Below, in pieces: positions 7,150 to 27,832 of a stretch of 64,000 nucleotides of DNA. A program made the position numbers and the translations under genes. How positions within the stretch are numbered: position 1 is the first letter of the stretch; the number at the start of each line of letters is the position of its first letter. The DNA is from Bryum argenteum (lineage: Eukaryota; Streptophyta; Bryopsida; Bryales; Bryaceae), in NCBI GenBank assembly GCA_037043015.1, contig CM073324.1, positions 8,143,013 through 8,207,012 on the forward strand, read 5' to 3'. The notes beneath the pieces are model-generated. The model saw only the letters and a list, made by a program, of their open reading frames with translations, was not told the origin of the DNA and did not search any database.

Positions 7150-7230
<81 letters not shown>
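7150..7230. repeat. (AT)n microsatellite
   Basis: About 80 bp of uninterrupted TA dinucleotide follows the ABCD 3' region. ORFs of alternating Ile-Tyr across it are artefacts of the repeat. Confidence 0.97.
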
Positions 7231-7236
<6 letters not shown>

Positions 7237-7873: not shown

Positions 7874-7910
7874 ATTATAAAACGGATATTTAACTAATTA
7901 TGGACAAATT
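7874..7910. repeat. Left terminal inverted repeat of the 14.3-kb element
   Basis: The sequence running through AACGGATATTTAACTAATTA and TGGACAAATT pairs with the reverse complement of 22109-22144, which reads AACGGGTATTTAACTATTTA then TGGACAATTT. The two ends therefore match at about 30 of 33 positions after a 2-base gap near the outer edge. Confidence 0.8.
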
Positions 7911-8079
7911 CCAAACTTATGGATAATTTCACTAAAAAAATAAGTATAAAAATGTATGGAAGATTAATAAATAATAGAAAACCAAGCAAGATATATTGAA
8001 AATCAAGCAAGATATATTGAAAAGTGCATGTAAAGTAATAAAACTATCTAAATTACCCCCAAAAAAAAAAATGAAATTA

Positions 8080-9001
8080 TATCGGCTGAAGGCCAATACA
8101 AGGAAAACCGCTGAACCCTAAACCCTAGACCCTAAACCCTATACTGTAGACCCTAGACCCTAAACCCTAGACCGTAGACCGTCTACAGCATTTCCCGTCT
8201 CCAACCCACATTAGCTGAAATGCTGTATCGGACGGCCGCCGATAGAAGCCCCAGGAATATGACGAAGTAGTAGTAACAAATTATCAGATCTCAGCTCAGA
8301 AACGGAATCCTAAAGGTTGCTCACTCATTCATACACAGATCAGTTCAATACGATTGAGAGGAATACAGTAATATAATGTCATGAATAGCAAAGTCCAATA
8401 TCGGCCGCCAGCCGAGAAACGCGAGAACAATGAAAGAAGAGGAGTACATTGTAAGTGTAAATTACAATGATCGCTACAGTAAAGACAAAGTAGGATATAC
8501 TGTATCGGAAAGCCATAGGAAGCTCAGACTTGATCAGCCGCCAGCCGAGAAACAGTAAACTAGAGAAATGGAGGGAGCACAACGAAGCAACCAAGAACGC
8601 TACATTGTCAAAAACGATGTATATATTGCAATCAAAAGTCATGGATAGCTAAATCCGGTATCGGCCGCCAGCTGAGAAAATGTAAACCAGAGTAATGGGA
8701 TGAGAAGAGCCGATGTGATAAAAGAGCTCTAGCACATTGATAATGCAGAGTATGCCGTAGCGAAATTACAACAGGTACACAGAGACTATAGACATGGAAC
8801 GCACTAGTAAGGTGAGTCGGATATGAACCAGCGGGTATAGCGTCGTGTCGGCCGCGGCGATAGGAGGTCGGAGTTGCTGGTGCGAAAGCATATGAGTGAT
8901 GATAAGTATCGGCCGGCAGCCGACAAGTGCAGAGCAGGGACGTCATAGCGTGGGAGGATGCGAGGGAGGCTCACATGAAGCGTGTCGGCCGGGAGCCGAT
9001 A
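8080..9001. repeat. Cluster of eight 19-bp palindromes, left subterminal block
   Basis: Palindromes related to TATCGGCTGGCAGCCGATA lie at 8080, 8226, 8399, 8532, 8659, 8847, 8907 and 8983, on the left flank outside the main exons. Several here end CCGAGA instead of CCGATA, so this block is more diverged. Spacing is irregular (about 60-190 bp). Confidence 0.88.
8108..8182. repeat. Degenerate plant-telomere-type repeat near the element's left end
   Basis: The stretch holds several CCCTAAA/CCCTAGA units (AACCCTAAACCCTAGACCC, then related copies with CCGTAGA variants). CCCTAAA is the plant telomere unit; this is an interstitial, diverged copy inside the large element. A short TTTAGGG pair also occurs at 14289-14304, just before the start codon of the plus-strand gene. 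Confidence 0.8.
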
Positions 9002-9020
9002 CAAATGTATACAGATTAGC

Positions 9021-12000
9021 TTAGAGAACAGCTCCAGCGGCCTCAAGGTTAGACATTGCAGCTGCAGCGGCCTGCTCGAGAATGATATGTGTAGCTGGTG
9101 GACCTTTCCTTGCATGTGACGGCATCCTATGAGAGAACAGAACAATGTTCACATTCACAATCTGAGGAAGACAAGGCTCCTTATGCCAGCGGCGAGTCCA
9201 GCAATCCCTAGCGATGATTGATTTTCCTTGCTTCTTAGCTCGCATAGGGGTCTACCATTCGATCTTGAAATTTCCGTAGGTAGGACTAGGCGTCAGATCA
9301 ACACACTCAAGGACACGCCCCAGCCAGTCAGGAAGGAAATGGTCGTCGCAGGGGCGGCATAGGACGAAGTCTCCAAGAAGAACATCACGGAATGGATTAA
9401 AGTTGAGCCTCGGTCGGTCTTTAGCAGGACCACAGTAAGGATAAGCATCTGCATCATCCTCAGGCGTAATGTCCTGTGGCTGAGAGGAGCTCGATCCAAA
9501 ATCAAACGAGGCACGAGAATGATCACGAGTCCAGTCTGAAATAGGCCAAAATCCTTCGACAAGAACGTCAGGGGTAGACGGTAATGGTGAATTGATCTCC
9601 CGGTTGATACGCTCCCAGTAGCCAACAGGTCCAGCCATCTCCTCGCAGTAACGCCTATTACGCGCCATACCGGTCTTCCAAAACTCAATGAATTTAGAAA
9701 TACCGTGCTTGATGAAACCCTGTTTGTGATTGCACTCCGAGGCACAAGCTTGCTCCTTCACGGAGTTCAACTTGTTGGGGTTAACCTCCGTGACGCCCCA
9801 TAATGGCTTAAACGGAACAGGACGTGGGTCGCCATGTGGAATTCTAGGTGTCCCTTGCTTGTCAGAAGTCCACATCTTGACGGGGGGACCAGGTGGGAGC
9901 CAAGAAGAATCAGTCGATTTTCTCTTATACCTCATGACAGGCCAGCCACGATCGTCACCGTCCTCTTCGACCCAGAACTTGAAAAGATGCATATCATTAA
10001 GTCCAACAATTTTGTTGACACCGTCGTGATGAAAGTCCTTGACGTAGGATTTGAAATCCGCGACCTCTTGAACGAATTCAGGGATGAAGGCAACTGTCTT
10101 CTGCGAGTCCATGAAAGCCTTCATGAGATCGCCTAGAACGTATGTGTTCTTTCGCTTGATGAGCTTGGAAAGGTAACTGAAATGGACATCAATATCCTCG
10201 TGAGTGTGGCCAACAATCAGGAACCCAACAGTGACCTCCTTGAATGTACGCCGAGCGGTCAGCAAAGAGCAGAAGGCCATCACAAATCTGTTCTTGTTGT
10301 CCTTGGCGGAATTATCAAGCTGCAAGAATAGCTTATGCGGAAGCGGAACAAGCGGACGTCCAGGTTCTGAAGGACCGAACTGAGACCCGGTGGCGGGTGG
10401 GATAGTAGCGAAACACCTAGACTTTCCATGTAGCAAAGCTTGGAAGAAGCTGTTTTGTGGAGGTGTGGGAAAGAGCTCCCAAGATTCACGTACGGATGGC
10501 TTCTCAAGCGCTCGCAGTACACGACACAAGGAAGAGATTGTGAAGTTGGAATCCCCCGGCCAGAGCGCAGTGGAGTAGTGTGTGTACGCACCATCACCGT
10601 GGCCGTGTGTCAACATGCCGCAATGTAAACCGAATTTGTCCAAGGCCAACAGTGGCTTTCGTAATCCTCTGCATTCTGGGAATGGCCGTCTTCGTGGTAT
10701 CCATCTTGTCATGGATTATACATAGAAACTCAGAGGGGTTCTCGCAGGACTAGGAATTCCAGCCACCATATATATGGCGGCAGGCACGCTGGTAGTTGAG
10801 ATGGCGATTCCGGTCATCGACTAATGCCTGCCATTCATCACAGCCCCTTGGGTACTTGGATATGCACTCCACAAGGAAGTCACACTCAGTACACTTAGAC
10901 AAGCTGCTCCCAACAACTTTAAGCTCGACGTTCTTGAAGTGGTTCTTTCGAAGCTGACTGATGGTGGACTGAGAGACCGGCTTATGGTGGCATTTGATGT
11001 TCACCTGGAAGGAGGAGATAAGGAAGGATGTTAACATCCTGGTTGACACCTCCTATCGGCCGGCAGCCGACAGAACTGCACTGACATAAGCACGAACTAA
11101 TCGCTAACGGAGTATCGGCTGCCAGCCGACAAGTAGCACAGCGACGACTAGATAAGCCACGACGGAATTGACAGCAGAAGAAAAAGAAGAATGGTCTAAT
11201 TAGAAACATCCGAAACATAGCAACCTAGTGTATCGGTCGGTACCCGGCATCGAGGACGAAGAGGAAATAACAATGGTTTTACTTGATTCACTTGCTCGCG
11301 CATGGTGTCCCAATTGAGAGCAGATGGAACAACCTTCAGATTGTCAACTCGCTTATTTCCAACAAGCCTGAACTCGTTAGGCATCTGGTCCGCATTCTCG
11401 TCAATAATCTTCTGCAGGGTTGCTCTGGCCTGAATCGTATGCGGACGTGGACGGACAGCTCCAGAATTGCCATGCGATCCGCTCACTGATCCACCCATTG
11501 CTGCAGCTTTGTAGACGTGGTAAGCTGATCTAGAGACAGCGTGAATGATATACCAAGCGTTCTCGCAGACCTCAACATTCTCAAGCGTGATGAATTTCCT
11601 GCCTCCCGGTTCATGTACATGAAGTTGACTTTGAACGGCATACGTTGTCTCTCTTCTAATTTCAAAAGAGCGAGCATAGTACTTACGACGAAGGATTTGA
11701 GTAGACTCCCATGGAAACGTCTGACAGCACCTACTCTTGCAGCACAGCTGAGAACTAACCTTGCGAATTTCATCATCCGAGGTCTTCGATTTAAGCCTAG
11801 ACCTAGCGGGCTGCTCCTTTGACAAGAGTCTACGACGAACGGACATGTGGGGATTCCGAGGGACGCCCTGAAGTCCCGGATGTTCGAAGGTAGAATTCTG
11901 AGCGGCCTCAGAGCATAGCATGACTGACAGGAGTTGACCGCCTTCAAGTCGAGTCCGCGAAAGAGGCCATCTCATGGTCGTGAGCTGTAGGGTATCGTGC

Positions 12001-13115
12001 TCTGAAATGAACATTACTCCAACATCTGTATTGCCAAGAAGGTCCTCATCGCAGGCTTCATCCGGAAGACATACTTGAATGATCGCCTGCCCAAAAAAGG
12101 TAAGATCCTCGTTAAGTAGGTCGCAACAATTGTTCCTCCAGTCGGGCCGATCCAGGACTGCTTGAGCTTCCGATGGCAATTCTTCAGTTTCGTGTGAGAT
12201 AGAGGGGCGAAAGTTGATTGCGCTATTGCCGCCAGAATTATCCGAAGAGGGCTGCGAGAAGATACCGTTGTCAAACGGCGTAGCATGAAGATCATTAGCA
12301 GATTCATTTCCTTGAGAGGAGAGGACATCGACCCGAGTTGGCGGATTTGTCCCGGACCCACAGTCGTCGCTGCCCTCAAAATGAGAAAGACCAGTTGAAT
12401 GATGCGGGTAACCTGAACTACCACAGCAGTCAGTAGAGGGTGAGTCCTTGCCACCGTCATCGCTGGGGGGTTCAACCTTGACACTCCTCAGAGTGGGGTG
12501 TATCGGCTGCCGGCCGATAGAGTTGCCATTCAGCAGCGTAGCGTCGAGGGGACGAAGTTTGTAACCGCTCCAAAGGATTTCGTACCCAAGGCACTCACCA
12601 AACAGAGTGAGAGAAGGATTCTCACAGTACGCTACCAGACCAACAAAGTCCTTATACACCGTAGTGAGCTTGACAACTGCAAAGAAGCTATGGGGGACGC
12701 GAAAACCCTCCCAGGTGCCCTTAGGCAAGCACTCAACGATGACGCCCACTCCGACACAGTGATGATCGGTCCCATCAACATGCAATAGAGCAACCTCCAT
12801 GTTAACAGAGAGAGTGAGAAACTGATTTATGGGCTTCTCATCTAATGGCCTCGGTGTCGGCTGGCAGCCGATAGGCTCGGATGATTCATCGAGGTTATCA
12901 GTGAAGGGTCTCACGTCATTCACCTCCCATGTAATGTTGTTACCATGACACTGACTAAGAAACTTTATGCTAGGAGTGAGAAACGGAATGATCATCTCAA
13001 TATTTGGAGCGACGTCAAGAACGTGGACGTCTAAAAGAAATGGCTTTCGCAAGATAATTCGGTTGATAGAAGCGATGCCAAAGATAGTAAAATTTTGCGA
13101 ATGATAGAGCGACAA
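9021..13115 (-). pseudogene. DUF7869-like transposon protein, disrupted
   Basis: Exons read 13115-11283 and 11004-9021; the intron between them (11005-11282) holds three palindromes. The N-terminal 340 residues are unfamiliar. From about 11760 down come a basic helix-rich region, VCENAWYIIHAVSRSAYHVY, and MPNEFRLVGNKRVDNLKVVP. The second exon has a CTEC...H putative zinc site (residues KCTECDFLVEC), then CIIHDKMD, HGHGDGAYTHYSTALWP, LQLDNSAKDNKNRFVMAF and GHTHEDIDVHFSYL. These blocks resemble proteins annotated DUF7869 in plants and protists. The Asp residues in KMD, LQLDN and HEDID could be a DDE-type catalytic set; that is inference. It is broken by in-frame TAG codons at 10750-10752 (WNS*SCENP) and about 9252 (KIEW*TPMRA), and by one frameshift near 10610-10625. 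No ATG opens the first ORF, so the true start is unknown. Confidence 0.72.
11054..11250. repeat. Three palindromes within the DUF7869-like intron
   Basis: Copies lie at 11054-11072 (TATCGGCCGGCAGCCGACA), 11113-11131 (TATCGGCTGCCAGCCGACA) and a degenerate one at 11231-11250. All three fall between the donor at 11281-11282 and the acceptor at 11005-11007 of the minus-strand gene. Confidence 0.88.
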
Positions 13116-13328
13116 CTGTGCCCTGTTCTATACGCCATCTCCCGGAACCGCCGTTCTTGAGAAAGCTGTTAATCGGTTCGGTTTCCAGCATCATGGAGCA
13201 TGATCTCTTCATTGATCTATCGGCTGCCGGCCGACACAACTGCGAATCTAAAAGGTTGAAGAGATGTAGGAAATAATGAGACAGGTGCAATAGACACAAC
13301 CACCTGAGGTATCGGCTGCCGGCCGATA
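12501..13328. repeat. Four palindromes in the 5' half of the DUF7869-like gene, two in frame in coding sequence
   Basis: Copies are at 12501-12519, 12855-12873, 13218-13236 and 13310-13328. The first two lie inside the long open frame and are read as S-I-G-R-Q-P and P-I-G-C-Q-P. The last two are upstream of the frame, in the presumed 5' leader. Confidence 0.88.
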
Positions 13329-13399
13329 CCTTGTTCTGCAAAACCCGGGAGACAAGACAATGAGGGACACGTGATAGTTACAGACGGCGGGGCGGCCGA

Positions 13400-14310
13400 T
13401 ATAAAGAGATCCGACTGATTCCTAAGGAATCGTATCGGCTGGTGTCATTCACTATGTCGGATGGCGTCTAATATCAGGGTATTGAGCCTCTAGCTATTAA
13501 ATCGTGCTAATTGAAGTAATAAAAGGCTGCTATCTACCGCTCTATATATAGAAAGAAGCGCACTAACACGGGGAACACAATGACGCAATTCTTGACTATT
13601 TCTGGCCAGGGAAAACTACAAAAACAGCAAAGCAAATCGCTCAGAGCGCCAGGAAACACGCGAGAAATGAAATGGAATGTCGAAAATGATTGGAAAAAAG
13701 GATAGCCATCTGAAACGCCAGAGCGTGGATGGCGCTCAAATCAAGAAGATTTCAAACTCAAATTTCAAATGATTTTGAATTTTCGGAGGGCTAATTGCTA
13801 GGTAGGATGAAAAGCAATGATGAAATGGATGAAAAGATTTGAAATGACGTTTTGGCGGCTCGAGCTTCAGAAAATTTTGGCGGGCGGGCAAGCGGTTGCG
13901 AAAGCGGGCAAGCCGATTGAAAAGCGGGCAAGGCGCAAATCGGCGGGCAGCCGATAGCCATCATTGCGAAAATTCCGGAGGGGGTAAACCTTTCACCCTC
14001 CCTCATTTGCTCTCATTTGTAATTTGCTCTCCTCTCGTCTCTCACTTTTTTTTGCGCTCTCTCACTCACTTTTGCTCTCTCCCTCACACTTTCGCTCTCT
14101 CCTCTCTTCTCTCATTTTCATTTCTCTCCTCTCATTTGCTACTAGCTCTCTCCTCTCCATCGCTACTTGCTCTCTTATCTCTCCTTTCTTTGTCAGTCTT
14201 TTCTCCTCTCTCGCTTTCACGCTCTCACCTTTTCTTCTCTCGCTTTCTTGCCTTAGCTGTTTCTCTCGGGCGGTGATAGTTTTTAGTTTTAGGGTTTAGG
14301 GTTTCTAGCA
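13400..14310. promoter_or_regulatory. Divergent promoter region with CT-rich leader
   Basis: The minus-strand gene runs left and the plus-strand gene runs right from this interval, so it should hold both promoters. A pyrimidine-rich tract (about 14010-14265, mostly CTCTCT/TTCTC) and a TTTAGGG-type telo-box (14289-14304) precede the first ATG at 14311; both are common in plant 5' leaders. One palindrome lies at 13938-13956. ORFs across the CT tract are low-complexity artefacts. Confidence 0.5.
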
Positions 14311-14753
14311 ATGCCGACATTTCTTACGCTCCACCCGGCGACCTTGCATGAGCGAGAGAGCGGCAAGAATGACATTCCTTACGCACCCGGCCGACAAACT
14401 TTGACGGGAGCGGAGGCAATTTACGCACCAGCCGACATCGAGCACTCGCCAGCCGATACACCTCCGATGGCGTCGTCGAAGAGGTAAGCCGATTTAGCTC
14501 TTTTGTGACGTTTCAGTATGCGCCGTTTCAATTGGCGTCGTTTCATTTGCATCTTTTCGTCATCTTCTTGTACCTTGTGTGTCAGTTTGCCCGGATAGAT
14601 AGCTTGTGAAAATTGTCGGTACGCCAACCTATAGATTGTGAGTTGTCGGTTGCCCGATAGCTTGTGAGTCGTCGGTGGCGGTGATAGCTCACAAGCTATC
14701 GGGTCGCGAACGACAACCAGTGTTGTATCTACTTACATTACACTGCTTAGTGT

Positions 14754-15036
14754 GTTGGCTGGCAACCGATAGCCCTTATGCTGAAGCCTGTTCTCTTGTA
14801 ATGCTTAGTGTACTCGCTGGCTGTTAATAGCTCCTATGCTTTAGCGCGTTACATTGCCTTGTGTATCGGCTGGCAGCCGATAGCTTCTATTCTGTCGGCT
14901 GGCAGCCGATAGCATGCTATTTGCTATAGGTCATTAGACTATCACCGTAACTAATGCATGTCAGCACTGATTAATTGTGCATCGTCGCTATCGGCTGGCA
15001 GCCGATACCATGGTTGTTATCGGCTGGCAGCCGATA
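14754..15036. repeat. Five palindromes in intron 1 of the plus-strand element gene
   Basis: Copies are at 14754-14771, 14864-14882, 14893-14911, 14989-15007 and 15018-15036. Three are the exact form TATCGGCTGGCAGCCGATA. They lie between the donor after 14483 and the acceptor before 15116. Confidence 0.92.
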
Positions 15037-16010
15037 AGATATGCATTTACTAATATACACTAATGTACGTTTACTGGCGTTTACTAATATACTCTCACAT
15101 GACTTTATCTTGCAGAAAACCACCAGTCCTAGCTAGACTGCTTGGTGTTGAGCTTGCACACACGGATGTCAAGCATGGAGACATCGTCCCGCTGCGGTAT
15201 GAAACGGCTAATCCAACCATTCAAAGAATGGGGACTATCTTTGGAGAGTCCTTCCTGCCAAATAATTGAGATTGCTTGTTCGTACCTCTACAAAGGTAAT
15301 ATGATCCCTGGGTTTGGTGATGTGCTAGAAATTTTGGAGAATGTGGAGCACGTCGACATTCTTATAAGCCTACCGGCCCTTAGGGATCCCTCTGCCCCGA
15401 CCGACTACATCGCCGTATCACTGCCGTGGGCAACATGCACTAAGGCGGTTTGCGGAGAGCCGGCGGTTCAGCAGGGCATGATCTTCAACGGAGCTGCGCC
15501 TGCGACCATCGAGGAGTTCATGGACGCGTGGTCCGCTATAGATTACGCTAGGTTGGCAATTAACAACGCCATCGATGCAGCAGCGGCTGCGGCTCCATCG
15601 TCGTCGAAGAGGAAGCCAACTCCTTCGAAGAAGAAGCGACCTGCAGCAGAGATGGTTGATCTTGGCGATGACGACGATGAAAACGTCCAGGGGTCACAAG
15701 ATCCCAGCAAGCCCAAGAGACGGGCGAAGTCGTCTAAGAATGCCATCGAGTATTCCCTAAACGAGGCCCTGACTAAGGGCAACCAAATGACATCCAAGAT
15801 GAAGGACGTCGGGATCGACGCAATTTACAAGGCATTGGAGACTGGTCTTGGTTACCTGTTTCCCTACAAGAAGCGGAGGCTGCCGGGGGTTATTCCTAGC
15901 GAGAAGCTGCACATCGCTCCGGACGAGCTCAAGTACAGACGCATCGCGAAAGAACGTCTGGGCCAGGTATTTTGTTTTTCTCACCTTCTCTTATGAAGTA
16001 CTGCTCTATG

Positions 16011-16660
16011 TATCGGCTGGCAGCCGATACATCCTCTGTGAATCTCTGATTCATGATTGTTCATTTGTTTTGTTCTTTGCAGGTGAAGGCCATCTACAGG
16101 GGCTACGGGGCGATCCGGAAGAAGCCTGAGATCCATGGAATTCCGCTAAAACGGGAACCACTTGATTCCGATACCGGGATGATGGCTGTCATGGATTCGA
16201 TGCCAGGAGAGTTGGATATGTGGAAGCTAAACGACACAGACCCCGACATCGCCCCGAAAATTCCGTGGTGGCAGCATCCTACTGTCCACTGGTATATCAT
16301 CGGTGGTCAGCATACAGTGACAGCCTACCGTGAGTTGGCGGACGAGTATCCCGAAGGCTTGGATGCCAAGAAGGAGCTTCTCGAATTCGAGATCATCCCA
16401 GTGTTCTCGAGGGACCCCATCGATCTTGTGAGGGTATCAAACGCCCTGAACCTGAATATCGCAGAGAAGGTCGCCAAGGAGTCCTTTCGTTCATGCGCGG
16501 AGCTCGGGAGGGCAGCATGGAAGCGACTCGGGTGCCCTGAGCCACATAAGGGAGGCGGGAAGCCGTCACCAGCCTTCGAGGTAACGTTACCCTCTGCCAT
16601 TCCTATCGGCCGGCAGCCGACACATTGCATCCATCTCCACCTATCGGATGCCAGCCGACA
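16011..16660. repeat. Palindromes in introns 2 and 3 of the plus-strand element gene
   Basis: One exact copy lies at 16011-16029 in intron 2 (15967-16082). Two lie at 16604-16622 and 16642-16660 in intron 3 (16581-16709). Confidence 0.9.
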
Positions 16661-18037
16661 ATTCTTCTGCTTGCGTTCATTCATTTAAATTTGTGTCGTT
16701 GATCTTCAGGCTGCAAAGGCGCAAGTTATGGCGCACTTCGTGAACGAGAAGGTGTCTTCCAAGCTCCCCTTGGTATTCGTCGGTGACAAGGCCTGGAATA
16801 CGTGGATCGAGGTCTTCAATGTCTGGGAAGCAGGTGAGCTAATTGGGGACGACGGCAAGGAGTCGGGACTGATCAAGCGGTCTCCAATCTTGAACATTAC
16901 GAAGACTGGGTCTCCGTGACTGCGATCTCGAAGAGCTTGCAGCGGAGGTCATTGCGAATCGCGTCTGCATCAAGGCTAACAGCAGGACAAAGGACAGACT
17001 CACACTGCCTGACTGGTGCCGCGACAAGAAGCTCGACCGGGTCATCATGAATGAGCTCATGTATCAGCTGAAGAGGTATCCGCTTCCTTGCAAGGATGCG
17101 AACTGGTCGCCTTACCCAGATGCTGAGTGGGACAAGTTGGCGAAAGAGCACCATTTCACCGCGAGTGTCGTGCGCAACATATGGACCGACCTGCGGAAAT
17201 ACACGGACGGGAATGAGTGGCTAAATGGCCGCGCGAGCGCAATGAATCAGACGACTGACAAATCGAAGAACGGGGTTGCGCCGCCCATATTCAGCACTAT
17301 CCTGCAGACGTATTCTCCGGTCCAGGTCACGACGGAGGAGGTCGATGCCGAGAAGGCGTATTTCGAGTGCAAATTCGCGGACACAGTTGCTGATGTCTTG
17401 CAGGAGATCGACGCAGCTGTTGGCCATACCGGCATAGAAAAGGACCCACTTCTTATCGTCTACTTCGGGTACAGTGTTGGCGGAGTCTCGGTTCCAATTA
17501 GTAGAGCGGATCTTTGTGCGCTCGCGGAGCGGTCGAAGGTCCCACTCACGGATGACGACCTCACGATGGACGATGACGACGTCACTCCGACTCGGCCGCT
17601 TTACCCAATCCCGATGTTGTTCATAACGAGCGCGAAGCAACGGGATCTTCTTTCTGCTCTCTGGACAACCGAAGATACTGAATGGTATGTTCAGACGGTG
17701 TATTACAAGTCGTGTCTTTGGGGGGGGGTTCAAGAAGACAATGACGGAATCTTTGCCGCTTGTTACGCTCAGCATGACGTACCCAAAGGTACGCGGGATG
17801 TTGATCGGTGGACGACATTCAGGAAGTATACAGGAATCGTGAAGCCAGTCGATTGGTTCCAGGCATCTCCTGAAGGTGCTGTCGACTGGAATGGGGGATT
17901 CTGCGGTGTCGACCATGAGACGCTCAAGAAGTTCCTAAAGCCAACTCTCACCGTGAAAAAGGTCACCGTCATCAACGTTTGGGGTGGCGGAAACGTCACC
18001 GAGCTTGGATTGGTAAGGCATCCTCTCCTTTGCTTTG

Positions 18038-18678
18038 TATCGGCTGCCGGCCGACACCTTCTGATATTGGTTTATTTTACCTTATTCGTTTTCCAGTACT
18101 TTTTTGGTTCCCTTGGGTCTCGGCTGCCAGTCGACATTCTCTTACTCTTGTTCATGGTCTTGCAGAGAAATGGGAGGTCCGTGATCGAGTTTGTCAGAAG
18201 TCAGGACCATGTCAAGTTGGCAGTCCAACGTGCGAAGGGACTCAACCTCGATAGGGTCGAGCTTCCACCGTCGTCTTCCGAGGATATGAAGACCGACGCT
18301 GGTCCCTCAGTCTCGTCTCGCGAGCCTGTCAACCCTGGACGTCGTCCCGCCTCTGGTGTTAGGATTCAGGAAGTGGTGGAAGAGATAGATCTTACTCCAA
18401 TGTCTCTCACACCTGCAACCACGCCGACGGCTCCCCCTGAATCGACTGCCACACTCATCCCTCCGCCTGTATCGGCTGCCGGCCGACACATTGTCACCGT
18501 GTCAGCACCGCCTCCTGATACTAGAGCAGATCTGCCTTCTTGTGTTGCGACCACGTTGCAGCTTGATTTGCAACATGCCCCGGAGGACGAGGTGATTGTT
18601 CTTGAGCAGGTGCCACCGTCTCGTCGCCCTCACAGGCCTTCCCAGTCTGTTCCTGCCCCTATCGGCCGACAGCCGACA
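18038..18678. repeat. Palindromes in intron 4 and in frame in the following exon
   Basis: Copies at 18038-18056 and 18118-18136 fall in the 153-bp intron 18013-18165. Copies at 18470-18488 and 18660-18678 are within coding sequence, read as V-S-A-A-G-R-H and P-I-G-R-Q-P in the Pro-rich linker. Confidence 0.9.
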
Positions 18679-19107
18679 ACTCCGGCTTCTTCCTCTAGGG
18701 AACTTCAGAGGGCTCAATCGTTAGTGGAGGCGTTTTATACTCATAGGGAGGACGCAGTTGATTCGGCGGCTCCTTTGGAAGAAGATGCCTACGACATTAA
18801 CGCCACAGACGAGGAGGCTCTCTACGAGGAGGACGACGTATATGATATCAACGCTCCAAATGAGGCGACCCTCGTGGACGACAACGTATACGCTATTGAT
18901 GCCCCGAACGAGGCTTTGTCTCCAGCAGCGTCGGAACATAATTCCCCGCAGCAACAACAATTACCTGAAGGTTTGTCCTAGACGACGACGCTTCTTGTAT
19001 ATAGTCTCTTTTCACCATTGCATCAGCATTTTGGGTTCTAGAATGGTTCTGCTATATGAGTTTCCTGGTTGCAACGTGCTCGGCGAGTTCGTTCCCTTGT
19101 ACTACTG

Positions 19108-19404
19108 TATCGGCTGCCAGCCGACTCCCTATTATCGTTTCACGTTTTTGCCTTCATCCCTTGTCTCCTCTGTCGATATCTCTCAACCGTGTTCTCTCAG
19201 CTTATCGGCTCCCAGCCGACAAGTCGTTATGTCAATTTTTTGCACTATTCCTCTCCCTTTCATCATGGAGTTGGATCTTATGTGTTTTTACTCCCACCAT
19301 TCTCACTTTCTGTGATTCGTCTCATTCACATTGTGTGATTTGTTGGGTTGGTCATCTGTCGGCTGCCAGCCGACAGATGTTCCCTTGTCGGCTGCCAGCT
19401 GATA
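19108..19404. repeat. Four palindromes in intron 5 of the plus-strand element gene
   Basis: Copies are at 19108, 19203, 19357 and 19386. The one at 19357-19375 is extended by its flanks to a 27-bp palindrome (about 19353-19379, CATCTGTCGG...CCGACAGATG). All lie in the intron 18971-19519. Confidence 0.9.
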
Positions 19405-20375
19405 CACTCTCATCCCTGTAGTCTTTAGCCACACTCCTTTAGCCTCGCTCTTACCTCACTCTTTTGCATACACCTTGCTTCTCTTTTGCTTATTGTACAA
19501 ATGCTCTAATCTCATGCAGAGGTAGGTGAGTCTGCGAACGAGGAGATCGTGGACTCCGCTTTTCATGGATCGCAGCCGGGCACCTCCATTGCGACTCATC
19601 TCTCACCTCGAGGGCAGGTAGCCCCGCTTAAATATTTCATTCTCTTCGACGTGAATGGCACTCTCATTCACTTCGTTCCTCGTAGGGTCGTTCCCGGTGG
19701 GGATCGTCCCCCTTGGTTGAAGCAGGAGGCAAGGGCAAGACCCGGCCTTGCAGAGTTGATAACCTTCTGCTTGAATGCAAAGTTTGAAATTTGATTCTGG
19801 TCCTCGGTATACGAGAAGAACCTTACTCCGAGGATTGATTTTATTCAGAAAATTTGTCCCAATCTCCCTAAGGACATCTTGGTGTTTGATCAGAGATATT
19901 GTTTCCGGAGTTGCTACCGGGACACTTATAATCCTGACCGGCCCTACTTTCTAAAGTCAATTACTCATCTCCTTGAAATGAGTCCTGAGTTGGTTCGTCG
20001 TGGTGCCAATCCCGATAACATGCTTCTCATTGACGACTCCCCCTACAAGAACGTTCTGAACAATCCGTATAATGCGTTCCACCCCTCCACCTGCACTTTG
20101 ACCTCGGAGATGAATTTGAGTGGGAAGCCTTACTTTCAGAGGATTTTGCAGCCTCTATTGTACGAACTCTATTCCTCCGGAAAAACTATTCATCAGTTTT
20201 TTCAGGAGCACCCAAGGTTAGGGCAACACCGTATGTTCCCGACTCATCCGCTGTACGAGAAGTACAAGAAGATTGATTTTGGAAGGAGGGAGTAATCATA
20301 AATTGATTACTCCTCCTCCTCTTTTTTTGCCTTCGAGGTGTTCAAGATGTTGGAGCAAGTTCAAGAGGCTCTAGT

Positions 20376-22093
20376 TGTCGGCTGCCGACCGATACACCTC
20401 TTGTTAGCCTACATAGAATACCATCTTAATACAGGTCCTTAGCGTGGGTGTATAGATTTTGATATCATGATCTAGGGAACTAGAGTTTATAGATCACTTA
20501 GATTTTCTTCTAGTTCTGTACATTTTCTAGGGATCTACTCCAGACTTTTTCTTGACTGTATATTATGAGGTTGTTTAATATGCGAAGAATTTCTTTATCT
20601 CAACATATAGAGTTTTCTATCATATTCCCTTTCTTGGTGTTGGTTCTTATATTTGGTGTTTGCTGATTTATTCTTTTTAGCTTAAGGATCCATGGCTTCT
20701 CCTGGTCATTGTTTCGGTGATGTTTCTACTCATGGACAGTCTAGTTTGTTTTCTTCTCGTGTCAGCTGCCATCCGACACCTCAATGTTTATATTGTTTTT
20801 GTCTTCTTGTCATTTCGCCGCCGATACGCCCGCCTCATTCTATTCTATTGTGAATGCCATTTCTATCCTTCGATCCGACTTTTTTTTAGGCGAATCTGCT
20901 TGGGGGATTGCCGTTTCGATTATGACATTGCCGGTACTTCTTCCTCCAAGAAGTGTATCATTCTATGCGATCTGGATTGCTTTGCTATATCAACCCCAAT
21001 ATTCTGACGGATCGTTGGAATGCTCACCGTAATGTTATCAAGCGGCCAGGTCTAACGAAATTATTTGCCATGTTGTTGGAGCGCTTCCATGTTGGTCTCT
21101 GGTGTACGATGCCGATCCGTGACTTGACGACTCTCCTATCTTATATTCTACCTTCTGGCGTCATGGACAGGCTATCATTTGTTTTTGGTAGAGAATATTG
21201 TGATCGTCCTATGAATTTTCCGTGGTGTTACAAGCTCCTGAAGACTCTCTATTGCAAGCGGCGTTCTCGTGAGGTGTGCAGGCCCGACCAGCTTCTCCTC
21301 GTTGATGTTTCTCCACTGGCGTTAAGGTTGGCGCCGGATGCTGCGTGCTACATGCCCTATCCTTTTCGAGGTGATTTAACGTCTTCAAGTACTACTATTC
21401 CGAATGTAGCTACAGATATCCTTCCGTTTATCTACCCCTTATACCAGTTCGAATCTGTTAGTGAATATATGAATCTTTCTAATAGACCGGGTGAACTTCA
21501 TTATGAAGTTGCTCATTCCCTCAAGTACGGTGTTCCTCTCAGATTGCAGTGTTCCTAGGTTTTACTTATTCTGCAAGCCTATCGACTGCGAGCCGGCACT
21601 TCAAGCGATGAGCTGGTGCAGCAGAACTTGCGATGAGCCGGTCACCACTCGCACTCGTCGACTTCTCGCATTCGGTCTTCAAATTGAGATTTGCCAAGGA
21701 ATTGTATCATGGATTGTTGAACATGGAGCGCCAGAATGGAGGAAGCTGATGATGGAGTCGTGTTGCTGCTTATCGGCTGCGAGCCGACACCACTGCAGTT
21801 CACCTATGCTATATCTATGTTCTGCTTCAATACCTGGTGTTGCTGTATTTTGTATACGGTGTTGTAATATTTATTGATGCGAAGTTAGTGCAGTCGGTTG
21901 CGCGCCGATACCACATGCTAGTGGGTCGAGCTTCGTTTGGAATATTCGTTTATTCTTTTAATGAAATGGATTTGTTTCCTACTCTAATAGTGTATTCATC
22001 TTTAATTTCTGCGAATTGCTAATATATTCAATCATTCTGTTTTTTTGCCTTGCCTTGTTTGCGCCTTTGAGGTGTGTCGGACGGAAGCCGATT
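20376..22093. repeat. Six palindromes in the right part of the element
   Basis: Copies lie at 20376-20394, 20760-20778 (degenerate), 21580-21598 (degenerate), 21771-21789, 21892-21910 and 22075-22093. They are spread downstream of the fusion gene, around and beyond the second FCP1-like ORF. Confidence 0.82.
20692..21558 (+). pseudogene. Second FCP1-like HAD ORF, frameshifted
   Basis: A second, diverged FCP1-like sequence follows the fusion gene by about 400 bp. In one frame it reads SSSKKCIILCDLDCFAI (the D-x-D motif); after a one-base frame change near 20990-21005 it goes on as NILTDRWNAHRNVIKRPGL, FHVGLWCTMPI, DQLLLVDVSPLALRLAPDA and ends at 21558. The layout matches the first copy block for block (D-x-D; RPGL; WC/WS; LLLIDDSP), so it probably arose by duplication. 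A possible start is ATG 20692, with an intron carrying the degenerate palindrome at 20760. The second HAD aspartate pair reads VDVS rather than DDS, so activity is doubtful. I cannot tell whether it was a separate gene or a further exon set of the fusion gene. Confidence 0.5.
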
Positions 22094-22108
22094 GATTTCT
22101 GGACTTCC

Positions 22109-22144
22109 AAATTGTCCATAAATAGTTAAATACCCGTTATAATT
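22109..22144. repeat. Right terminal inverted repeat of the 14.3-kb element
   Basis: This is the inverted partner of 7874-7910. It lies 15 bp outside the last palindrome (22075-22093) and marks the return to AT-rich host sequence. Confidence 0.8.
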
Positions 22145-25662: not shown

Positions 25663-27832
25663 ATGGGATCTTCTGTCGCTACCGTAGGTGTGATGGCAAG
25701 CGAGGAGAGACTGTCGGGATTCTATGGGGAGATCGAAGAGCAGAACGAGCGAATTGAGTGTGCTGCATCCAACGTCCCTGATGCGTCCGTGACAGGGCGC
25801 GTCAACATGTTTCTGTTTCAGGGGCGCTCAGTCTACGACGCCTGGTTCAGCGCTGCCTCCAGTCAGGTTTGCAATCTGTCACTTTCGATCGCCATTGCTG
25901 CGAACAAATTAGGGTTCCAGGTGTGAAGGATCATCGATTGAGAGGAGGGATTTGAACATTGCAGATAGCGCAAGTGCTGTTGACGTTACCGACGTCGTTC
26001 GCCCAGCTGGGGTACGCGTCCGGAGTGGCTCTGCAAATCATCTACGGCATCGTCGGCTGTTGGTCATGCTACATGATCACATGGCTGTACATGGAGTACC
26101 GGACCCGCATGGAGCGTGAGGGCCATACTTTCAAAACCCATGTCATACAGGTTCGAGAATCCACCATCTCTCATCTGCCCTAAGATGTTGTGCGTACCAT
26201 TTCGCGAAATTGATGGGAAATTGGCTGTCAGTGGTTTGAGGTGCTGGATGGCTTACTGGGCCGGAAATGGAAATACATCGGCCTCGCGTTCAATTGCGTA
26301 TATCTACTGTTCGCGGCCATCACACAACTTATTGCTTGTGGAAGGTGAATGATGCTTACACAATCTTGCTTTAATCGATTCTAAGAGACAAGTAGCAGGG
26401 AATCGGACTAGACAGACAATGCCCTGAAAGTTGTGACTGAGCATGCATTTCTGGTGTGCAGCAACATATTTTTGCTCAACGATGACCTAGATAAGCGAGA
26501 GTGGACATACGTATTTGGTGCGTGTTGTTTGGTGACGATCTTCATTCCGTCGTTCCGTAACTACCGACTGTATTCGTGTTTCGGCGTGGTGGCGATCACC
26601 TACACATCGTGGTATATGACAGTAGCTGCCCTTGCATACGGTCAGGTAATCAATCAATCAAGCAACATCATTCTGTTGTGTCCTCTTGATCAACAACCTT
26701 GGATCCTGATTGCTTCTGTTTGGCCAGGTTCTGATTCTGTGGTACTCCTGTCGGTGATAGGCGCCAGGAGCAACTCACAATGGGCCGAACTCGTTGGTGC
26801 TCTACTTCACCGGCGCCACCAACATTCTCTACACCTTCGGCAGCCATGCCGTCACCGTGTATGTAACAAACAACTCACCTGCCACTTGAATCGCACATGC
26901 TTCAAGATCTGATCGAGAACGGATTGAGTTGCAGGGAAATCATGCACGCGATGCACAGACCCGTGAAGTTCAAGTACGTCTACTTGTTCGCCACACTCTA
27001 CATCTTCACGTTGACCATCCCCTCGTCCATGGCGGTCTACTGGGCCTTCGGAGATGCTCTCCTAGAGAATGCCAATGCGCTGCAGTTGCTGCCGAAGTCT
27101 CCTGCTCGCGATGTGGCCGTGATCCTCATGCTCATCCACCAGGTACATTATTCCACCGGGGAAACGATTATACTGTTAGCATCACTGATCGTACATGGCT
27201 GACTGTGGTGGTTTGTGGGGATCAGTTTGTGACGGTGGGGTTCGCGGTGACGCCGTTGTATTTCGTGTGGGAGAAGATCCTGGGAGTGCACCAAGTGAAC
27301 AACATGCTGCTGCGAGCGTCGTGCCGAGTGCCCATCCTGCTACCCATCTGGTTCCTGGCTATCGCGTTCCCGTTCTTCGGCTCCATAAACTCCGTCGTCG
27401 GTTGCTTGCTCGTCACCGTCACTGTGTACATAATTCCCTGCCTCGCGCACATGGTGTACTTCTGCAAGCCCTCGCTGCGAGCGGTAAATTCCCACCCTCG
27501 CACCATCTTCGTTAGTCGATTCAAACACCGACTAGAATGATCACTAGAAAAACGGTCGCCATGGCTGGTCATAAACTGTCACAAGAGCTCTAGCTGACAA
27601 TGCATGCATGGATTGGAATGGTATGGTATGGCAGCCGTCAGTAGAGAAGCCGCCATTCTTCCTGCCCACATGGACGGCCGTGTACGTGGTGAACATCGTG
27701 GTGATTGCATGGACGGTGGCGGTGGGCATGGGCTTCGGAGGCTGGGCGAGTGTGACCACATTCATCAGGCAGATTCGGACCTTCGGCGTCTTCACCGCGT
27801 GCTATCAATGTCCAACAGTGTCCACTACGTAG
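25663..27832 (+). CDS. AUX1/LAX-type auxin influx carrier
   Basis: Eight exons (25663-25866, 25965-26150, 26232-26344, 26462-26645, 26761-26858, 26935-27142, 27226-27483, 27635-27832) join in frame to 482 aa, the normal LAX length. The family is a proton-coupled amino-acid/auxin permease of the plasma membrane with about 11 membrane helices. Diagnostic blocks are VYDAWFSAASSQIAQVLLTL, YGIVGCWSCYMI, WFEVLDGLLGRKWKYIGLAF, LVLYFTGATNILYTFGSHAV, EIMHAMHRPVKFKYVYL, TIPSSMAVYWAFGD, VAVILMLIHQFVTVGFA, VWEKILGVH and the C-terminal KPPFFLPTWTAVYVVN then FGFGGWAS-like GMGFGGWASVT. The N-terminal about 50 residues are acidic, as usual, but not conserved. The start is the first ATG of an open exon. Intron 4 uses the acceptor at 26759-26760; the alternative at 26727-26728 would bring a stop into frame. 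No break is seen. Confidence 0.95.

Follow-up and report, generated by a model that had tools for sequence, protein, structure and literature searches.

A 19-bp palindrome repeated through a family of moss DNA transposons is a candidate protein-binding site

Why should a mobile element carry dozens of copies of one short palindrome? The question is raised by a 64,000-bp stretch of the genome of the moss Bryum argenteum (258.8 Mb, 25 contigs), referred to below as the window. A preliminary description had noted about 38 variants of a 19-bp palindrome in the window, confined to an element at positions 8080–22093. It had offered three explanations: binding sites for an element-encoded protein, hairpins in RNA processing or silencing, or tiny self-spreading hairpin elements. 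Here we report that the enrichment and conservation of the palindrome are real and strong. We consider it likely that the palindromes are binding sites for a protein acting on this transposon family, most likely an element-encoded dimer, with the copies at the ends serving transposition and those in the body serving expression or anti-silencing.

Distribution of the palindrome in the window and the genome

The palindrome was searched as an exact 19-mer, TATCGGCTGGCAGCCGATA, and as a degenerate consensus, TRTCGGCYGSCRGCCGAYA, for which up to 3 mismatches define a site and 4 mismatches a marginal site. At up to 3 mismatches, the exact 19-mer gave 54 strand-matches in the window, with most sites counted twice, once on each strand, compared with 0.01 expected from 100 dinucleotide shuffles. 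The consensus at up to 4 mismatches occurred at 40 places, 39 of them within 8080–22093, which bears out both the reported count and the confinement within the window; the fortieth place, at 27622 outside the element, is weak and chance-like. At up to 3 mismatches, 35 sites lie in the element and 0 in the remaining 49,742 bp. The scan also agrees that the stretch 9002–11053 is free of palindromes, and that the left flank (8080–9001) and the right side hold several, although not the eight and six first counted: at the threshold there are 7 in the left flank and 9 to the right of 19000. Across the genome, the consensus matched 2566 positions on the forward and 2583 on the reverse strand, largely the same places, compared with 4 and 2 for a reversed-pattern control, and the exact pattern TATCGGCN5GCCGATA occurred 635 times versus 0 for its reverse. 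The motif is therefore far above control genome-wide, and it is not equally dense in the window DNA outside the element.

The outermost palindromes are not the limits of the element. Homology among copies ends sharply at 7881 and 22138, at terminal inverted repeats of ~30 bp that start AACGGATATTTAACTA, and an identical 4-bp target duplication flanks 7 of the 8 paired copies, the window copy included (in the eighth, which may join two copies, the ends lie 24 kb apart). Because of these inverted-repeat ends and identical duplications, we classify the element as a class II DNA transposon of 14,258 bp; it has the terminal inverted repeats and the fixed-length target duplication of that class. The exon at 16894–18010, used as a query, gave 85 genomic candidates; 40 were scored, and the 39 besides the window are 85–98% identical to it. 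A diverged family, which we call family B and represent by the element at C1:1604635-1619150, has ends of the same kind, a TCAT duplication at both sides and 58 palindrome sites at up to 3 mismatches. Its long exon matches are 68–77% identical to the window element (family A).

Beyond the window, confinement to this one element no longer holds: among the loci examined, the sites belong to a family of elements and their small non-coding relatives. The first 30 loci listed by the genome scan, brought in by exact matches and all on contig C1 in 15 clusters, align to element A or B with the palindromes masked (30/30), and each of three isolated sites chosen on C1 proved to lie in an element remnant or a miniature inverted-repeat transposable element (MITE). 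The MITE, at one of the isolated exact sites (locus L083), measures 343 bp and has related ends, with a TAAA duplication and a palindrome close to either end. A first look at the genome gave 541 candidates, of which 40 were scored (89–100% identical, reference included), and the signature of its left site has 535 genomic matches (270 on one strand and 265 on the other) at up to 3 mismatches versus 0 for the control. Between its palindromes, the centre of the reference copy (L083:755-1097) is made up of one long inverted repeat.

Within the element, the right gene (exon borders set by eye; all four introns GT..AG) has 10 sites in 1,030 bp of intron versus 2 in 3,485 bp of exon. Introns 1–4 hold 5, 1, 2 and 2 sites, as expected from the earlier statement that every recognised intron of the main genes contains them; what that statement missed is that the sites at 12501, 12855, 18470 and 18660 lie in coding linkers, where all four are read in frame (12855 as EPIGCQPTP, 12501 as SIGRQPI). 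Conserved exons, including the one encoding DUF7869, have no sites. In family B, sites occupy the same introns and the same kinds of linker, with three in its exon-4 linker.

Position, conservation and symmetry of the sites

Three features of the sequences support the proposal that the palindromes serve as binding sites for an element-encoded protein: a kept subterminal position, conservation above that of the surrounding DNA and half-sites that vary independently.

First, measured from the right terminus, the nearest palindrome is reached after 45 bp in the window element and after 46 bp in both family B and the MITE. Both palindromes occur, though altered in many cases, in 21/21 aligned MITE copies, namely the reference plus 20 of the 39 others that were scored; a perfect 4-bp duplication is found in 18/21. 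The right-end position is our best evidence for a role in transposition, because whatever the transposition machinery requires should be retained in elements so small.

Second, many sites are retained across aligned copies. In an alignment of 31 rows, comprising the window and 30 loci (one of which, L031, is the window again), five of the sites pass the threshold in 27–30 of the 31 rows and others in 11–24 (Table 1). The site at 18118 is present in 13 rows, replaced by a clean 20-bp gap in 17 and not alignable in 1. In the pair 12501/12855, the 354-bp spacing is unchanged in family B, L011, L021 and the mutually overlapping L024 and L025; in family B, L011, L021 and L024 each of the two sites agrees with the window at 14–17 of 19 bases, in aligned DNA that is otherwise 64–67% identical. 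The differences fall largely (17/24, taking L024 once and counting a gap as a difference) at the degenerate positions 2, 8, 10, 12 and 18.

The palindrome also occurs in arrays. Across 18 of the 30 loci, selected to keep overlap small (some slight overlap is left among a few), neighbouring sites are spaced at 28 or 29 bp in 59 of 179 cases and at 55–58 bp in 24 of 179, and family B has further runs at spacings of 46, 56 and 65–67 bp. Spacers inside several of these runs are alike, so these arose by tandem duplication; in the window element, by contrast, the three pairs spaced at 29 bp have unlike spacers. A general 28.5-bp phase was not borne out, as 4/12 short spacings in the window and 16/37 in family B lie within 2 bp of a multiple.

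These data bear on the idea of tiny hairpins that spread by themselves, inserting into the transposon and being tolerated in its introns and linkers. The clean presence or absence of 20 bp at 18118 between groups of copies keeps this option barely alive, and the avoidance of conserved exons by the sites fits it. Yet no target duplication was seen at 18118, all 33 loci examined (all on C1) are element-derived, with no insertion into unrelated DNA among them, the positions are fixed in 21/21 MITEs, the 354-bp spacing is shared by diverged families, and tandem duplication with spacers explains the arrays. The sites instead multiply through tandem duplication and along with the transposons, and we regard independent mobility as extremely improbable.

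Third, the two arms of the palindrome vary independently. The preliminary description had noted that many variants keep pairing, which would suggest a constraint between the arms. In 334 distinct sites with at most 1 mismatch at the 14 fixed positions, mixed pairs at positions 2/18 numbered 165 versus 128.5 expected under independence (n=303), and those at positions 8/12 numbered 138 versus 123.5 (n=317). The window alone (17 versus 12.1 for 2/18; 13 versus 9.9 for 8/12) and family B alone (13 versus 12.8; 29 versus 24.9) gave the same picture, and no P value is attached because the 334 sites are related by descent. The variable positions thus lack covariation, and the compensatory arm-to-arm changes expected of an RNA hairpin family are not seen.

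This result weighs against RNA hairpins that act after transcription by guiding how element transcripts are spliced, processed or silenced through small RNAs. Such hairpins could form: as RNA, the perfect 19-mer has a folding energy of -9.6 kcal/mol (z -3.4), and 10 of the 12 right-gene sites are intronic. On the transcribed strand of the window element and family B, the balance of pair-breaking and wobble combinations is mixed, because the two position pairs lean in opposite directions: at 2/18, A.C (20; window 9, family B 11) exceeds G.U (9; window 8, family B 1), against a hairpin, whereas at 8/12, U.G (23) is slightly above C.A (18), in its favour. Our argument rests on the covariation test. 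Sites also lie 45–46 bp from the terminus, in gene-less MITEs and in coding DNA, which also speaks against this option, and we judge RNA hairpins very unlikely.

The independent variation of the arms argues not for a pairing constraint but for the half-sites of a dimer. The site is most naturally taken as a pair of half-sites, TRTCGGCYG, each read on its own and placed about a central G/C.

Candidate binding proteins

In the mechanism that we favour, a dimeric element-encoded protein would bind the 19-bp site with one half-site per arm. The end-adjacent sites probably help to build the transposition complex, because MITEs keep them. The extra sites in introns, intergenic DNA and coding linkers, partly multiplied by tandem duplication, probably bring that protein to the element as a whole, to control its expression or to relieve silencing in the manner of TnpA and VANC in other plant transposons.

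Several observations weigh against this proposal. The two MITE palindromes, conserved at 0.950 and 0.945 compared with 0.965 for the rest of the MITE, are no better kept after insertion than their surroundings. The subterminal site of the window element is a weak, 3-mismatch variant, and in the long elements roughly the first 200 bp at the left end are free of sites, unlike in the MITE, whose left palindrome is at 73 bp. DNA to the left of 13 copies (17,735 bp) contains 3 sites, all beside the copy at L067, which has an inverted second element. No recognised DNA-binding domain was found in the pieces of the element proteins that were scanned, and the binder could be a host protein rather than one of the element's own.

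In that last case the palindromes would be sites for a silencing protein or transcription factor of the host, which the element exploits or endures, as the lack of any element protein with a proven DNA-binding domain and the enrichment of sites in introns would allow. It would be unusual for a host factor, however, that the window has no such motif in its 49,742 bp outside the element and that the isolated sites examined are element-derived, and the fixed subterminal position also speaks against it; a host factor seems unlikely, if worth keeping in mind.

If the binder is encoded by the element, the right gene is a candidate source. Its protein has lysine/arginine-rich stretches and an exon-2 domain with the motif IIGGQHTVTA, and it had no significant match in Pfam, NCBIfam, PHROGs or a PDB sequence search. 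The strongest sub-threshold matches were TOP_N (E 0.0094) and a RecT-like PHROG (E 0.016). Its closer genomic relatives are families A and B, and 35 further listed loci are at 27–36% identity. Eight of these (L159–L166), from a distant family of open frames that shares the GGQH/DGQH domain, were read, and all have DGQHS or GGQH. Five of the eight were scanned in Pfam and NCBIfam and gave no significant name; the insignificant matches in that Pfam scan were TOP_N (0.055), GmrSD_N (0.13), DHFR_1 (0.14), DUF1015 (0.17), DUF6551 (0.18) and FPN1 (0.36). Among a few peptide patterns used to look for relatives, those from exon 3 matched nothing in viral contigs and those from the protein alignment nothing in genome contigs.

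The IIGGQHTVTA/DGQH motif resembles that of ParB/DGQHR proteins, a lead on which every test was negative or weak. The by-eye suggestion that the right-gene protein is a ParB gained no support: PF02195 did not exceed the cut-off in the genome and the database scans were not significant. Alignment with P1 ParB by hhalign failed to match, and that with the YbdM family was weak (E 0.01, probability 4%), with the GGQH motif aligned to DGFHR. On this lead, an element-borne ParB/DGQH-fold protein would load at dozens of parS-like palindromes of the element and its MITEs, spread along the element, and keep the element active or assemble transposition. We hold this to be improbable, and we know of no such clamp-type addressing system from eukaryotic transposons.

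The left gene encodes the presumed transposase (Table 1), whose DUF7869 domain is also found in family B (E 5.6e-42, in an open frame of 661 aa). DUF7869 is hugely amplified in this genome, with 1811 first-look candidates, of which 150 were scored. The palindrome had no match in 2.5 kb adjoining another DUF7869 gene (L158), and among the matches listed there was no exact TATCGGCN5GCCGATA within 80 kb of four DUF7869 matches on C1 below 5.33 Mb. Apparently the palindrome is not carried by every DUF7869 element; the few other families looked at are without it. A literature search by the name DUF7869 gave no paper. Two stretches of the third gene region that resemble NIF/HAD phosphatases (E 0.027 and 0.0036; neither passes the cut-off) are conserved in both families.

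Other observations concern the setting of the elements. Contig C1, which makes up 17% of the genome, holds 18 of the 40 scored long copies versus 2 of the 40 scored MITEs, and it may be a slowly recombining or sex-linked chromosome. At L067, the inverted second element stretch lies directly left of the copy's left end, indicating that elements insert in or beside each other. Plant telomere-type TTTAGGG-like repeats occur at 8105–8180, near the left end of the element, and at 14283–14310, and family B has a longer TTTAGGG-like run at the same end. A long AT microsatellite (7151–7231) lies ~650 bp left of the element.

Table 1. Features of the element in window coordinates. Both scans, exact-19-mer and consensus scans; rows, aligned rows in which the site passes the threshold unless stated otherwise.
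Feature	Position	Strand	Evidence or remark
Whole DNA transposon, 14,258 bp	7881..22138	.	homology break-points among copies and paired flanks
Left terminal inverted repeat AACGGATATTTAACTAATTATGGACAAATT	7881..7911	+	copy comparison
Right terminal inverted repeat	22108..22138	-	copy comparison
4-bp target duplication ATAA, left	7877..7880	.	paired flanks
4-bp target duplication ATAA, right	22139..22142	.	paired flanks
Left gene, DUF7869 exon (PF25273, E 8e-40), presumed transposase, site-free	9027..10981	-	Pfam
Left gene, middle coding stretch kept in family B	11278..12155	-	comparison with family B
Left gene, upstream coding stretch, two embedded palindromes	12417..13212	-	comparison with family B
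Right gene, short first coding exon (inferred)	14467..14483	+	by eye
Right gene intron 1, location of 28/29-bp palindrome arrays in relatives	14484..15115	+	by eye
Right gene exon 1, frame broken in window copy (by-eye reading), open in family B	15116..15966	+	
Right gene exon 2, IIGGQHTVTA motif (DGQH/ParB-like by motif only)	16083..16580	+	
Right gene exon 3, frameshifted in window copy	16710..18012	+	
Right gene exon 4, low-complexity coding linker, two embedded palindromes	18166..18981	+	
Third gene region, fragments resembling NIF-like phosphatase (Pfam, under the cut-off), kept in family B	19720..21537	+	
Palindrome site	8080..8098	.	consensus scan, up to 3 mismatches
Palindrome site	8226..8244	.	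both scans
Palindrome site	8399..8417	.	both scans
Palindrome site	8532..8550	.	consensus scan
Palindrome site	8659..8677	.	both scans
Palindrome site	8907..8925	.	both scans
Palindrome site	8983..9001	.	both scans
Palindrome site, left-gene intron (inferred)	11054..11072	.	both scans
Palindrome site, left-gene intron (inferred)	11113..11131	.	both scans
Marginal site (4 mismatches)	11231..11249	.	consensus scan
Palindrome site, coding linker, orthologous in family B	12501..12519	.	consensus scan and family comparison
Palindrome site, coding linker, orthologous in family B	12855..12873	.	consensus scan and family comparison
Palindrome site	13218..13236	.	both scans
Palindrome site	13310..13328	.	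both scans
Marginal site (4 mismatches)	13455..13473	.	consensus scan
Palindrome site	13938..13956	.	both scans
Marginal site (4 mismatches)	14697..14715	.	consensus scan
Palindrome site, right-gene intron 1	14753..14771	.	both scans
Palindrome site, right-gene intron 1, next site 29 bp on	14864..14882	.	both scans
Palindrome site, right-gene intron 1	14893..14911	.	both scans
Palindrome site, right-gene intron 1, next site 29 bp on	14989..15007	.	both scans
Palindrome site, right-gene intron 1	15018..15036	.	both scans
Palindrome site, right-gene intron 2	16011..16029	.	23/31 rows
Palindrome site, right-gene intron 3	16604..16622	.	28/31 rows
Palindrome site, right-gene intron 3	16642..16660	.	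27/31 rows
Palindrome site, right-gene intron 4	18038..18056	.	30/31 rows
Palindrome site, right-gene intron 4	18118..18136	.	clean 20-bp gap in 17/31 rows
Palindrome site, coding exon 4	18470..18488	.	28/31 rows
Palindrome site, coding exon 4	18660..18678	.	28/31 rows
Palindrome site	19108..19126	.	22/31 rows
Palindrome site	19203..19221	.	24/31 rows
Palindrome site, next site 29 bp on	19357..19375	.	11/31 rows; most others without aligned stretch
Palindrome site	19386..19404	.	11/31 rows; most others without aligned stretch
Palindrome site	20376..20394	.	both scans
Palindrome site	20760..20778	.	consensus scan
Palindrome site	21580..21598	.	consensus scan
Palindrome site	21771..21789	.	both scans
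Marginal site (4 mismatches)	21892..21910	.	consensus scan
Subterminal palindrome, 3-mismatch variant, 45 bp from right terminus	22075..22093	.	consensus scan; same place in family B and MITE

Comparison with known self-recognition systems

Searches of the literature for core strings of the 19-mer gave three chance matches, none on transposons. In anatomy, the moss elements resemble VANDAL21 of Arabidopsis, in which the protein VANC21 binds a short nine-base motif that is repeated in non-coding regions, often in tandem repeats (PMC5735166), and in which VANC causes DNA methylation to be lost along the whole element (PMC5735166; PMC10398659). In both, a short motif is repeated in the non-coding parts of a multicopy DNA transposon, in tandem arrays that differ in number between relatives. 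Unlike the nine-base motif, the moss site is a 19-bp palindrome, a word that does not occur in the main text of PMC5735166; moss sites also lie in coding linkers and MITE ends, and the genes differ. An anti-silencing role here would be by analogy.

A second likeness is to CACTA (En/Spm) elements, in which TNPA recognises subterminal repeats that are cis-determinants of transposition, and those of soybean Tgmt are able to form palindromes (PMC2613891). CACTA elements, according to that account, share with the moss family repeated sites near the ends that non-autonomous derivatives keep, and their coding for a transposase and a binding protein may also be likened to it. They differ in that the moss ends are AACGG rather than CACTA, the duplication is 4 bp rather than 3 bp and the sites extend throughout the whole element. 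Pfam did not find a tnp2 domain in seven pieces of the window, two stretches of the family B left gene or exons 1–3 of the family B right gene. Membership of CACTA/EnSpm was rejected on the AACGG inverted repeats, the 4-bp duplication and this lack of tnp2 in the pieces scanned. We therefore file the element under neither system, because its ends, duplication and domains differ from those of CACTA, and a VANC function would apply by analogy only.

The bacterial partition system ParB–parS also pairs a palindromic site with a protein of the element, here one with a GGQH/DGQH motif seen by eye; unlike that system, PF02195 was not above the cut-off in the genome, and the profile comparison with YbdM relatives was not significant.

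In a single genome, several hundred MITEs and two diverged autonomous families have one palindrome in common. This gives a clean natural case in which to study how a transposon marks DNA as its own, with the 19-mer and the half-site rule open to direct test. If an element protein does bind the palindrome, this DUF7869 element would join TnpA and VANC as another independent example of sequence-specific self-recognition.

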